NCBI GenBank assembly: GCA_016938675.1
Contig: JAFGUF010000017.1
Location: 1 to 44,567, forward strand
Source of the DNA: Clostridia bacterium
GTDB lineage: Bacteria; Bacillota; Clostridia; Christensenellales; UMGS416
Direction of reading: 5' to 3'
DNA length: 44,567 nt
The position numbers and the translations under genes are program-made. Under the pieces are notes generated by a model. The model saw nothing but the letters and a program-made list of their open reading frames with translations, was not told the origin of the DNA and did not search any database. This document shows, in pieces, positions 33,188-38,362 of this stretch. Numbering within the stretch: the first letter of the stretch is position 1; each line of letters starts with the position of its first letter.

Positions 33188-34408
33188 TTAACCCTGCCTT
33201 TTGCCGAAGAACTGATAGCTGAAGACTTTTTCGCCCTCGACAAAGTAATCCTCATAACGGCCGCCGGAGGTGAGATAATCCGAGGTGGACTCATTTATTG
33301 TTTTGTAGCCTAAGTCTGCTATGTTCTTTTTAATATTTTTCAGCACAAAGTTTTTGCGGTTAGCTTCATCTATCTGACCGTTGGGGCTGAAATTCTTAAA
33401 GACGATATAGCTGCCTGCAAGATAGGCTGTGCGCTTGGCCATGGGGTCGATAGCGCTCAAAAGGAACTCCGTATTATCGAATGAAAAATTGCTGGTGCCT
33501 GAAAAATCAAAGATGATATCGGCGGATTCATCGGGAAGAGGAGTGTCGCGGAAGTCGCCGCATACGAAGAGTACATTCTTTGCGATGCCTGTCTTTTCCA
33601 GCATGGCTTTCAAAAAAAGGTGCCTGTTGATATCGTAATCCACGGCCAGGTATACGCTGGAATCGGGGAGGGCGCTGTAGAGATTTCTCAATAGGAAACC
33701 CATGCCGCTGCCAAGCTCCAAAATAACTTTGCCCTCAAGCAGGCTCATATCGAAAATATTGCTAAAATACTCTATACTTTTATACACCTTGTCCAGGTAT
33801 TCGCCGTCGGTATTTTTGATGTAGTCGGCGATGAAATCCTCGCTGAATTTATCGCTTATTGCTGATGCGGGCGAGGTGAAGATGATGCCGTTTTCTATTT
33901 TATATTCATTGCCGCATGTGCATTTCAATGTGCCTGATAATATTCTGTTTTCTTCGATTTTGCCGCTTGATAATACCAGCGCGCTGCCGCATTTGCGGCA
34001 CTTAATTATATTGAGAGCCGAGACATCAACACCTAAGGTAACAGTGCCCTTAGCTTCGTATTGGTTAAGCTTTTTCATTTCTTCTGTGAGGGCTGTTTTC
34101 ATTGATGACAGTTCATCTATCTGCCGTGAAATCTGCCCCAGTCGGGAAGAGTAGAGCGAGCGGAAATACTCCTGCTGCTGGTAGTCCGTGAAGCGCCCCA
34201 GCGAACGGAAGAGGAAGATTGTCTTAATCTCGCTTAGTGAAAAGCCCATGCTCTTTAGGGCGAATATCTCCGTGAGGCTTTGCTGGCAGCTTTCGCCGAA
34301 GTCGTACTGGCCGCCCGTTTTGCGCACGATAAGAAGGCCTAAGTCCATGTAGTGCCTTATGGTATCTATGCTGGTGTTGTTTTTTTTCGCGAATTCGCCG
34401 ATTTTCAT
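33188..34408 (-). CDS. MerR-family regulator fused to zinc ribbon and SAM methyltransferase
   Basis: 406 residues, AGGA eight bases upstream. Residues 1-70 are a MerR winged helix (MKIGEFAKKNNTSIDTIRHYMDLGLL...IFALKSMGFSLSEIK), followed by a helix to about 118 that normally forms the dimer coil. A zinc-ribbon/Trm112-like segment is next (CRKCG...CTCGNEYKIENGIIF, about 136-177). A class I methyltransferase completes it (motif I VILELGSGMGFLL, about 228-240; YLAVDYD; VCGDFRDTPLPDESADIIFDF). The zinc ribbon before the methyltransferase recalls RlmA-type rRNA methyltransferases. The fusion could make a sensor that changes binding on SAM or substrate, or an enzyme with its own regulator. The MFS exporter follows directly. 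Domain calls are firm; substrate and signal are unknown. Confidence 0.9.
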   Translation of the reverse strand: MKIGEFAKKNNTSIDTIRHYMDLGLLIVRKTGGQYDFGESCQQSLTEIFALKSMGFSLSEIKTIFLFRSLGRFTDYQQQEYFRSLYSSRLGQISRQIDELSSMKTALTEEMKKLNQYEAKGTVTLGVDVSALNIIKCRKCGSALVLSSGKIEENRILSGTLKCTCGNEYKIENGIIFTSPASAISDKFSEDFIADYIKNTDGEYLDKVYKSIEYFSNIFDMSLLEGKVILELGSGMGFLLRNLYSALPDSSVYLAVDYDINRHLFLKAMLEKTGIAKNVLFVCGDFRDTPLPDESADIIFDFSGTSNFSFDNTEFLLSAIDPMAKRTAYLAGSYIVFKNFSPNGQIDEANRKNFVLKNIKKNIADLGYKTINESTSDYLTSGGRYEDYFVEGEKVFSYQFFGKRQG

Positions 34409-36387: not shown

Positions 36388-37554
36388 TTATTTCATCACC
36401 ACCCTCACAACCTTCCCCTTCCCAAACCTCAGCACAACCCCACCCCTCAAATCCACACGCAAATTAACATCCGTCACAACCTCATCGCCCAGCCGTACCC
36501 CTTTTCCCTGAATATGCCTGCGCGCCTCGGAATTGGAGGAAGCAAAGCCGGCAAATTTAAGCAGCGTTATGATATCCGCCTCAGCCTCGGGAAAAGTGAG
36601 CGTGTCTATATCATCGGGCAGCGCGCCGCTCGCTAATTTTATGTAGCGTTCCTTGGCCTTATGGCATAGCTGCGCATCGTGGTACATCTCAGTAATCATT
36701 TCAGCGTATGCAAAGTGCGCCTTGCGAATATCGTCGGAGACTATGCGCCTGGCCTCGTCCCTTTCGATGTCGGTGGTTAATACAAAGTAATCCAAGAGCA
36801 GCTCATCGGGCACCTTCATGCACTTTTCAAACATAATGTCTGCGCTCTCTGAAATGCCGATGTAGTTATCTAAAGATTTGCTCATCTTCTCCTTCCCATC
36901 AAGCCCGATAAGCAGAGGGAAGGTCATAACGACCTGCGGCTGCTGACTATAGTGGGACTGCAGCGTGCGCCCCACAAGCAGGTTGAATGTCTGGTCGGTG
37001 CCGCCTATTTCGATGTCCGCGTTTAGTGCAACCGAATCATAGCCCTGAACTAAGGGGTATAGAAGCTCGTGCAGGCTGATGGGCGTACCTTCAGCGTAAC
37101 GGGTCTTAAAATCGTCGCGCTCCATAATGCGGGCAAGGGTATACTTGGAGGCGAGGCTTATTACCTCGTCAAAGCTTAGTTTGTTTAGCCAGGCGGAATT
37201 ATACTCGATGCGGGTTTTTGCAGGGTCTAAGATTTTTGTTACCTGCTCGAAGTAGGACTGCCCGGCGATACGAGTCTGCTCCAGGGTGAGGGCAGGGCGG
37301 GTCTTTGATTTGCCGGTGGGGTCGCCGATCATTCCAGTGAAGTCGCCGATCACGAAGACCACCTCGTGGCCTAAATCCTGAAACAGTTTCAGCTTGCGCA
37401 GGACGACCGTGTGCCCTAGGTGCAGGTCCGGGCGGCTTGGGTCTGCGCCCAGCTTGATGATGAGTTTTTTGCCGGAAGATAGCTTTTCCTCCAGTGATTC
37501 AATGGTGTGCACGCTGACCGCGCCTTTGATTATTTGTGCTGTTAAGTTTTGCAT
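36388..37554 (-). CDS. tyrS: tyrosyl-tRNA synthetase
   Basis: 388 residues from the ATG at 37554 (GGAGGG four bases upstream); the frame runs 16 codons further but without a site. It charges tRNA-Tyr in the cytoplasm. Class I motifs are HLGH (residues 45-48, the HIGH motif) and KMSKS (223-227). A tyrosine-binding pocket is formed around GGTDQTFNLL and LVQGYDS. A complete S4 RNA-binding domain ends the protein (about 325-388, FAGFASSNSEARRHIQGKGVRLG). It belongs to the TyrZ-like group by its ADPSRPDLHLGH start. Expression is controlled by the attenuator at 37584-37725. Confidence 0.96.
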   Translation of the reverse strand: MQNLTAQIIKGAVSVHTIESLEEKLSSGKKLIIKLGADPSRPDLHLGHTVVLRKLKLFQDLGHEVVFVIGDFTGMIGDPTGKSKTRPALTLEQTRIAGQSYFEQVTKILDPAKTRIEYNSAWLNKLSFDEVISLASKYTLARIMERDDFKTRYAEGTPISLHELLYPLVQGYDSVALNADIEIGGTDQTFNLLVGRTLQSHYSQQPQVVMTFPLLIGLDGKEKMSKSLDNYIGISESADIMFEKCMKVPDELLLDYFVLTTDIERDEARRIVSDDIRKAHFAYAEMITEMYHDAQLCHKAKERYIKLASGALPDDIDTLTFPEAEADIITLLKFAGFASSNSEARRHIQGKGVRLGDEVVTDVNLRVDLRGGVVLRFGKGKVVRVVMK

Positions 37555-37583
37555 TATGCCCTCCATAAAGTTTTTTTGTAAAT

Positions 37584-37616
37584 AAAAAAGCCCGAAACTC
37601 ATGTGAGCTTCAGGCT
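37584..37616 (-). terminator. attenuator terminator in the tyrS leader
   Basis: On the minus strand AGCCTGAAGCTC (37616-37605), loop ACAT, GAGTTTCGGGCT (37600-37589), then six T: a 12-bp stem with two G-U pairs. It lies 30 bp before the tyrS start, so it must be read through for tyrS to be expressed. Its 5' arm GAAGCTC can instead pair with GAGCTTT at 37665-37659, upstream in the leader. Confidence 0.85.
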
Positions 37617-37644
37617 GTGATTTCGCGGTTTGTATCTTATAAAA

Positions 37645-37725
37645 TCATTGCATTACTAAAAGCTCGAACGTATGTGATTTCGAGTAGTAGTAATAATATG
37701 CTGTTGTTGATATGAAATAAATCAT
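37645..37725 (-). CDS. tyrS leader peptide with five consecutive Tyr codons
   Basis: 26 codons, ATG at 37725, TGA at 37647-37645. The peptide begins MIYFISTTA, then five tyrosines (codons 10-14, TAT TAT TAC TAC TAC), then SKSHTFELLVMQ. AAGG lies seven bases before the ATG. It sits between the tyrS promoter and the attenuator terminator. The Tyr run ends exactly where the first hairpin arm begins (CTCGAA, 37684-37679), which pairs with TTCGAG (37668-37663). A ribosome stalled on Tyr codons would cover the first arm and free the second to form the antiterminator. The ORF and codons are read directly; regulation is inferred from the design. Confidence 0.85.
   Translation of the reverse strand: MIYFISTTAYYYYYSKSHTFELLVMQ
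37659..37684 (-). promoter_or_regulatory. attenuator segments 1 and 2 (protector/antiterminator arms) of the tyrS leader
   Basis: Segment 1 CTCGAA (37684-37679) pairs with segment 2 TTCGAG (37668-37663) across a ten-base loop. Alternatively segment 2 GAGCTTT (37665-37659) pairs with GAAGCTC (37611-37605), the 5' arm of the terminator. The two pairings exclude each other, as do antiterminator and terminator. Confidence 0.75.
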
Positions 37726-37750
37726 TTGCGAGCCTTTTTAGGTTTTTGTC

Positions 37751-37779
37751 ATTATATACTAATTTTTTAAGGAGCGCAA
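37751..37779 (-). promoter_or_regulatory. promoter of the tyrS leader
   Basis: Minus strand TTGCGC (37779-37774), 17 bp, TATAAT (37756-37751). The predicted start near 37744 gives a leader of about 190 nt. Confidence 0.65.
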
Positions 37780-37786
37780 GGGGCAG

Positions 37787-38362
37787 CTAGGCAATCGCGG
37801 AGGATATTTTGTTCACCACAAGGAATTGGATTGCATAGAGCATAGTTAGATAGAGCTTTTGGCTTTCTGCGTCATCTGCGTGAATGTCAAAATCTATGTG
37901 ATTTAAAAGGCTTACTTTGCCCTGCCGTAAGAGTTTGATAATACCCAGGTTTATTTTCTCAGTTTTTTTGTGGTCTTTTTCTATCAGCGCTTCTACATTA
38001 TCCGGGTGCGGCTTGATTTCGGCTATTAGCGCGCCGTTCTTTTCAAAGGACCTTTGCATAAAATAGAAATGGTAGTTTCCATCCGGAGCTTCAATGGATA
38101 CATTATAGCCGGCGAAGAAATTATCTGCTATTTGCAGCTTTGCAGCCTCCGTAGTATCTTTGAATATGGTCAATTCAGTATTGCGCCCGGAGGTAGTGTC
38201 ATCTATCAAATATATGGGGTATCCGTTGTTATCATACACAGCGATTTTAGAGCCTAAAGAATGTGCTTTGTCTTCAAACTCCAAAATTACATTATTGTCC
38301 TGGTCTAAAAAGAAGATATTGATGATGTCGTCCAGGGATTTGCTCTCTCTGTGTATTCTCAT
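37787..38362 (-). CDS. tubby-C-terminal/LURP-one-like protein
   Basis: 191 residues, AGGATTAGTAT before the ATG. It is almost all beta strands with a repeating pattern (LEFEDKAHSLGSKIAVYDNNGYPIYLIDD, FAGYNVSIEAPDGNYHFYFMQRSFEKNGALIAEIKP). This fits the twelve-stranded barrel of tubby-like/LURP-one-related (LOR) proteins, where successive hairpins wrap a central helix. The C-terminal helix LYLTMLYAIQFLV is hydrophobic, as in that fold. The assignment is by pattern and not secure. The gene ends just before the tyrS promoter. Confidence 0.6.
   Translation of the reverse strand: MRIHRESKSLDDIINIFFLDQDNNVILEFEDKAHSLGSKIAVYDNNGYPIYLIDDTTSGRNTELTIFKDTTEAAKLQIADNFFAGYNVSIEAPDGNYHFYFMQRSFEKNGALIAEIKPHPDNVEALIEKDHKKTEKINLGIIKLLRQGKVSLLNHIDFDIHADDAESQKLYLTMLYAIQFLVVNKISSAIA

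Follow-up and report, generated by a model that had tools for sequence, protein, structure and literature searches.

What controls the tyrosyl-tRNA synthetase (TyrRS) gene in the 44,567-nt stretch of DNA analysed here, which we refer to as the window? A first-pass annotation had called this gene tyrS and read the leader in front of it, the window leader, as a trp-type attenuator. The encoded protein is indeed a TyrRS, with a TIGR00234 score of 329.5 bits against a cut-off of 113.8, but it is not a plain TyrS. It carries the signatures HLGH and KMSKS, its closest solved structure is 1h3e, which we take to be the Thermus enzyme, and it is a second TyrRS of the Thermus (KMSKS) type. The genome of the window, G000, also encodes another TyrRS (G000:C21:72441-73559), which is 31% identical to the window enzyme, has KMGKT and is of the type of 2ts1, presumably the TyrRS of Bacillus stearothermophilus. 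By the usual nomenclature, we assume that the window gene would be called TyrZ-like. Enzymes of the window type are scattered. With the own genome counted throughout, they were found in 3 of 61 relatives at E <= 1e-60, in 4 of 396 genomes of the order at 1e-90 and, at 1e-115, in 10 of 391 genomes of the class and 13 of 398 genomes of the phylum, and most of the phylum-wide matches are only about 50% identical to the window enzyme.

According to the first-pass annotation, the gene is preceded by a promoter, a 26-codon ORF with its own ribosome-binding site and five consecutive Tyr codons, the complementary stretches CTCGAA/TTCGAG (segments 1:2) and GAGCTTT/GAAGCTC (2:3), and a 12-bp terminator (3:4). 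All of these are present in the sequence as stated, with the reservation that the ribosome-binding site of the ORF is weak. In the order of transcription, the features are as follows; the promoter elements and the ribosome-binding sites were read from the sequence.

37774..37779, minus strand: -35 element TTGCGC, with a 17-nt spacer to the -10 element
37751..37756, minus strand: -10 element TATAAT
37733..37737, minus strand: AAAGG, a weak ribosome-binding site in front of the leader ORF
37645..37725, minus strand: leader peptide ORF of 26 codons, MIYFISTTAYYYYYSKSHTFELLVMQ, stop codon TGA, with Tyr-rich counterparts at five other loci
37684..37698, minus strand: five consecutive Tyr codons TAT TAT TAC TAC TAC, codons 10-14 of the ORF
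37679..37693, minus strand: segment 1, TTACTACTACTCGAA, which pairs with segment 2 and would be covered by a ribosome that stalls in the Tyr run
37654..37668, minus strand: segment 2, TTCGAGCTTTTAGTA, partner of segment 1 or segment 3
37605..37616, minus strand: segment 3, the 5' arm of the terminator, AGCCTGAAGCTC
37589..37600, minus strand: segment 4, the 3' arm of the terminator
37583..37588, minus strand: T-run of the terminator
37559..37564, minus strand: tyrS ribosome-binding site GGAGGG
36388..37554, minus strand: tyrS, ATG at 37554, TyrRS of the Thermus (KMSKS) type with 388 amino acids (TIGR00234 E 3.3e-98; KMSKS; best solved relative 1h3e)

The promoter is not listed in a consensus promoter scan, since TTGCGC matches only three of six positions. 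Segment 1 takes in the Tyr codons (TTACTACTACTCGA), and a run of five TAY codons occurs once in the 44,567 bases of the window and in none of 100 dinucleotide shuffles. The terminator, a 12-bp hairpin (37616-37589) followed by the T-run, is picked up by a terminator scan, in which the region has two terminator-like sites versus 1.7 in shuffles and hence no excess. The 191-nt window leader folds with -39.1 kcal/mol (z = -4.04), and none of 200 shuffles folded as well. Rfam gave no match in the whole window at the gathering score and, in the leader region at E up to 10, only three weak, unrelated non-T-box matches far below their cut-offs. At the six leaders described below, there was no covariance-model match to the amino-acid leader-peptide families of Rfam release 15. 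A known Rfam leader family was therefore rejected as the identity of the window leader. Elsewhere in the window, an ORF of 191 amino acids without a Pfam or NCBIfam match at E 0.001 lies immediately upstream of the tyrS promoter (37787-38362, minus strand), and a single chain encoded at 33188-34408 (minus strand) combines an N-terminal MerR regulator with a C-terminal methyltransferase domain.

Is this arrangement peculiar to the window? In a tree of 101 TyrRS rows, calculated without L112 and L115, 18 Bacillota sequences formed one clade (100/100), which is sister to Bacteroidota/Ignavibacteriota-type sequences. The identical records L099 and L019, and L107 and L022, were each counted once, and the identical proteins L110 and L111, which come from two genomes, were counted twice. 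Promoter-like hexamers, a Tyr-rich ORF, a terminator and tyrS are found together in six of the 18 sampled clade members, including L105, which was counted although the scan described below missed it. The leader genomes belong to five families by label (f1 twice, f59, f55, f71 and f66). Apart from the window, the leader peptides are:

L016: MKNNTLQTYNTSLYYAYYYSMGAFTVVS
L019, Acetivibrio sp. MSJd-27: MNDILLKVIYYYLPVYPNRPGLLRPFSRG
L022, Clostridiales Rs511_bin13: MKKRSLESNGSRAYVYAYSYYYGSGLGSPLPYGTGCFM
L102: MAVNRQHSSNMYYYNYYYLNRLGLLLS
L105: MNQFLLVMIRAYQSESVSYYYGDRLGLLLQK

All values for the six leaders are given in the order window, L016, L019, L022, L102 and L105. The main cluster contains 5, 5, 4, 6, 6 and 3 Tyr codons, respectively. 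At each of the six loci, a short ORF with start and stop codon lies between the promoter and the gene, with no evident ribosome-binding site in L022, and the terminator hairpins with their T-runs have energies of -14.2 to -20.7 kcal/mol. The L022 leader ATG is located 9 nt behind the -10 element of a TTGACA-17-TATCAT promoter without an evident Shine-Dalgarno sequence, and its mRNA may therefore be leaderless. No new loci came from the families or orders of G534, G428, G421 and G417 (11, 1, 9 and 3 genomes, respectively) or from the class of G787 (29 genomes).

Based on these features, the leader is very probably a trp-type, ribosome-mediated transcription attenuator specific for tyrosine, that is, for Tyr-tRNA. 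This reading, which the first-pass annotation had put forward, gains support from the related loci, from foldings with a masked ribosome and from the absence of a T-box. We infer that the leader ORF is translated and that the position of the ribosome would decide between the alternative pairings. With ample Tyr-tRNA, the ribosome would clear the Tyr codons, reach the stop codon and cover segment 2, so that the 3:4 terminator could form and tyrS would be switched off. If charged tRNA-Tyr runs low, the ribosome would instead stall in the Tyr run and cover segment 1, leaving segment 2 free. Free segment 2 would then catch segment 3 on its way out of the polymerase; the terminator would come too late and tyrS would be read. 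In the absence of translation, 1:2 could form, to be followed by the terminator. The gene is a second TyrRS, and the device would therefore supply a reserve enzyme when the other TyrRS or tyrosine falls short.

The geometry of the leaders and their foldings in silico bear on these steps as follows. In the six leaders, 20-31 nt separate the stop codon from the terminator, and a ribosome at the stop codon can therefore occupy segment 2 without blocking the terminator. For the foldings, the ribosome was assumed to mask -15 to +13 relative to the first base of the codon in the A site. With a ribosome stalled at the middle Tyr codon and a transcript reaching just past segment 3, the probability of 2:3 was 0.86, 0.74, 0.90, 0.87, 0.77 and 0.91. 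Folding with a ribosome over the Tyr codons had been suggested as a check, and for this position it speaks for the switch in all six leaders (0.74-0.91) once segment 3 has been made. A stall at the first Tyr codon gave 0.33, 0.69, 0.90, 0.89, 0.99 and 0.92. For the last Tyr codon, however, the values were 0.88, 0.00, 0.20, 0.05, 0.00 and 0.44, and outside the window the pairing thus ranges from 0.00 to 0.44 only. Without a ribosome, 1:2 formed with probabilities of 0.65, 0.35, 0.27, 0.63, 0.76 and 0.72, and this pairing is weak in L016, where its energy is -4.3 kcal/mol, and in L019. The probability of 3:4 was 0.79-0.92 in the six leaders, either without a ribosome or with a ribosome at the stop codon. 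In the full transcript at equilibrium, 3:4 wins in every state; hence the predicted switch must be kinetic, with 2:3 captured in time.

Is the complementarity of segments 2 and 3 more than expected? Compared with shuffled spacers, the 2:3 duplex for the mid-Tyr stall had p values of 0.018, 0.198, 0.046, 0.140, 0.004 and 0.006, which combine to a Fisher p of 2.6e-5, L016 (0.198) and L022 (0.140) being weak. For the last-Tyr stall, p was 0.012, 0.461, 0.904, 0.172, 0.303 and 0.325, which is not significant overall (Fisher 0.095). When partners were exchanged among the six leaders, the matched set was the best of 720 permutations for 1:2 and likewise for 3:4. For 2:3, 36 of the 720 permutations equalled the matched set, as did 9 of 24 among the four similar leaders. 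A plain DNA alignment of the four leaders with a shared segment 2 puts the terminator arms out of register, and their 2:3 pairs were therefore tabulated by hand. In this table, from which one bulged base of L019 was left out, 36 of 36 cells pair and both-sided changes are seen at three of nine pairs. The first-pass annotation had named Tyr codons kept in related leaders, together with compensating stem changes, as evidence that would support it; the Tyr run, the ORF and the hairpins are kept in 6 of the 18 clade members, but compensating changes in 2:3 are modest.

A ribosome on the leader might also respond to something other than a low charging of tRNA-Tyr: it could be arrested by the nascent peptide, by an inhibitor or by tRNA mischarged with D-Tyr. 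The Tyr codons do come in runs, and the gene encodes a second TyrRS; the second TyrRS of B. subtilis, TyrZ, is described as a protection against D-Tyr (PMC9437257). In addition, the leader peptides, which are dissimilar beyond their Tyr runs, have one exception, as the stretch RLGLLL behind the run is common to L102 and L105, with a weaker likeness in L019 and L022. However, RLGLLL is absent from the window and L016, and it is encoded by segment 2, so that the likeness is explained by RNA pairing rather than by nascent-peptide arrest. Spaced arrangements such as YVYAYSYYY and YYYLPVY would also suit the counting of Tyr-tRNA better than a single arrest motif, and we regard such another signal as improbable. 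One might further speculate that a T-box on the second TyrRS gave way to the leader because translation would tell usable Tyr-tRNA from Tyr-tRNA that is merely charged; the leader would then be a sensor of aminoacyl-tRNA quality. With D-Tyr or some other misloaded residue attached, tRNA-Tyr has its 3' end occupied and would look charged to a T-box, whereas a ribosome would be slowed in the Tyr run by one such residue after another, and a more selective TyrRS would be induced. We consider this extension improbable.

Still less probable is a constitutive terminator behind a Tyr-rich ORF that arose by chance in an A+T-rich leader. Four of the six leaders have a G+C content of 33-41%, at which TAT and TAC are common, and the T-box loci L020 and L023 have Tyr-containing ORFs further down. 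The Tyr runs are, however, also found in L105 (45% G+C) and L022 (54% G+C), and the 2:3 complementarity for the mid-Tyr stall exceeds that of shuffles. We also scanned the 360 nt before each match start for an ORF of 15-45 codons with at least three Tyr in five codons and a terminator-like hairpin with a T-run within 60 nt. With these criteria, which like the segment boundaries were fixed only after the leaders had been seen, 7 of 106 regions matched, or 5 of 104 distinct regions without two duplicate records, as opposed to none of 10,300 shuffled regions. The five matches all fall in one TyrRS clade and recover five of the six leaders; L105 was missed because its stem is bulged. A terminator-like hairpin was present in 13 of the 104 distinct upstream regions. 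L112 and L115 had neither a scan match nor a T-box core, and none of 200 further shuffles made for these two regions matched.

It is very hard to uphold that the leader is a degenerate T-box with direct binding of uncharged tRNA-Tyr: Firmicute tyrS is classically under T-box control (PMC3315439, PMC1262725), four clade members have T-box matches and the window leader contains ACCGCG, yet a covariance search found no T-box in the window region at E up to 10 or at the six leaders up to 0.1, the same kind of search detects L098, L104, L017, L020 and L023, and the leader ORF would be left unexplained. The absence of a T-box core, as claimed in the first-pass annotation, is borne out at the window locus, and a covariance-model hit, which it had named as contrary evidence, was found at none of the six leaders. 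The ACCGCG motif, for which it had left chance or descent open, reads as chance, and a T-box remnant was rejected as the identity of the leader, as it gave no covariance-model match. The genome of the window has 12 T-box (RF00230) matches at E <= 0.001, five of them over the gathering score. For ten of these (L008 and L014 were left out), the downstream ORFs were identified as valS, leuA, metG, thrS, pheS, glyS, ileS, trpB, cysE and trpS. T-box matches thus precede seven other synthetase genes; the matches before valS and trpS are over the Rfam cut-off, and those before metG, thrS, pheS, glyS and ileS are below it, with E values of 2.2e-11 or better.

How are tyrosine leaders and T-boxes distributed over the TyrRS clade? 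A T-box match precedes 4 of the 18 members (L098, L104, L020 and L023), at E 8e-14 or better and below the Rfam cut-off, and eight members (L018, L021, L100, L101, L103, L106, L108 and L109) have neither a leader with terminator nor a T-box. The six leaders fall in a 12-member subclade (91/84, open fork) together with one T-box locus, L098, and five of the eight others. L103 was scored without a leader because its contig ends inside an intron. At this locus (L103/L120, G596:C24), a group II intron (RF00029, 47.5 bits) with a reverse-transcriptase-like ORF lies just before the tyrS ribosome-binding site, at the position of the attenuator terminator in the congener L102, and may have been inserted behind the terminator. 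At L106 (G476), a Tyr-rich ORF, MYMYRNYAPIDCYIIDSYINADRG, ends beside the tyrS start and no terminator was seen. This is possibly a translational version of the control; foldings with a masked ribosome did not consistently open the tyrS ribosome-binding site. In L020 and L023, the stretch between the T-box terminator and tyrS holds a short ORF that contains some Tyr codons (e.g. MAKGLKNNLIQWLLYDYLYLVKK) and is preceded by a good ribosome-binding site. In L018, a THF riboswitch match (1970-2065, 75.4 bits) lies about 1 kb away from a tyrS of the window type that lacks a leader.

The other TyrRS type is present in all six leader genomes (G000, G002, G417, G421, G428 and G534) among the 22 genomes asked, in G428 in two contig pieces. 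Only the window type was found in 4 of the 22, namely G343, which has a T-box, and G555, G575 and G1123, which have neither T-box nor leader. For the other type, we read the regions upstream of the gene in 12 of these genomes, and additionally in G000 as L002. The scan found a leader in none of the 12, and among the regions read, a T-box core by pattern was seen only in G787. In this genome, the window-type tyrS (L108) has a terminator-like hairpin and no Tyr ORF, and the other TyrRS (L132) has the T-box-like core. Relatives that keep the hairpins without the Tyr ORF, which the first-pass annotation had named as evidence against attenuation, were encountered at this one locus, L108, only. A common operon as an explanation for the second TyrRS was dismissed, as none was seen by eye in six neighbourhoods (five leader loci and L106), judged on the first residues of the ORFs and without a family search. 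By its motif, an ORF present in both L139 and L140 resembles an aldo/keto reductase; it is not adjacent to tyrS.

Judged by its sequence features, the window leader belongs with the trp-type leader-peptide attenuators. The pheST attenuator of E. coli, mentioned in PMC11802643 and PMC1262725, concerns Phe, Proteobacteria and a two-subunit enzyme. It resembles the proposed window attenuator in that a synthetase operon is under leader-peptide control by the cognate aromatic amino acid. Classical attenuators have also been predicted before the synthetase genes leuS and trpS of Streptomyces (PMC1262725), but for Leu and Trp and in Actinobacteria. For the Firmicutes, the view in 2005 was that classical attenuation controlled none of their synthetases (PMC1262725). 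Five years later, in 2010, bacilli were described to have His leader peptides before hisS* and hisZ, and an exchange with T-boxes was proposed (PMC2965389); His leaders in further Firmicutes are described in PMC9413887. The hisS*/hisZ leader resembles the window leader in that a Firmicute synthetase paralogue is preceded by an attenuator and a leader ORF in which cognate codons form a run; there, the other copy has a T-box (PMC2965389). The hisS*/hisZ leader differs in that it concerns histidine, bacilli and the hisS family instead of tyrosine and a Thermus-type TyrRS, and the two are likened by features, not by sequence. The AroR leader of Corynebacterium glutamicum likewise has a Tyr codon in its leader peptide (Phe-Tyr-Phe); however, it controls the aroF operon and is reported to be unaffected by Tyr availability (PMC11802643). 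A Tyr leader before a TyrRS gene was absent from the matches listed in open-access full text, and the accessible part of PMC8262941 contains nothing on one.

We have discussed above that T-boxes are the classical alternative. Williams-Wagner is said to have described a T-box of B. subtilis tyrZ in 2015. The T-box before tyrS of Enterococcus durans (PMC3315439) serves the same purpose as that proposed for the window leader, namely to let transcription of a TyrRS gene proceed past a terminator when Tyr-tRNA runs short, but the sensor of these tyrS and tyrZ T-boxes is a tRNA-binding RNA, whereas in the window leader it would be the translating ribosome.

Taken together, what appears to be new is a tyrosine leader of a known attenuator type in front of a TyrRS gene. 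The gene behind it encodes a second TyrRS, of the Thermus type, which points to an inducible enzyme kept for reserve or quality control. As leader peptides and T-boxes both occur within one TyrRS clade, their exchange could be traced on a tree. If our reading is true, it adds tyrosine to the amino acids that are sensed by ribosome-mediated attenuation of a synthetase gene.
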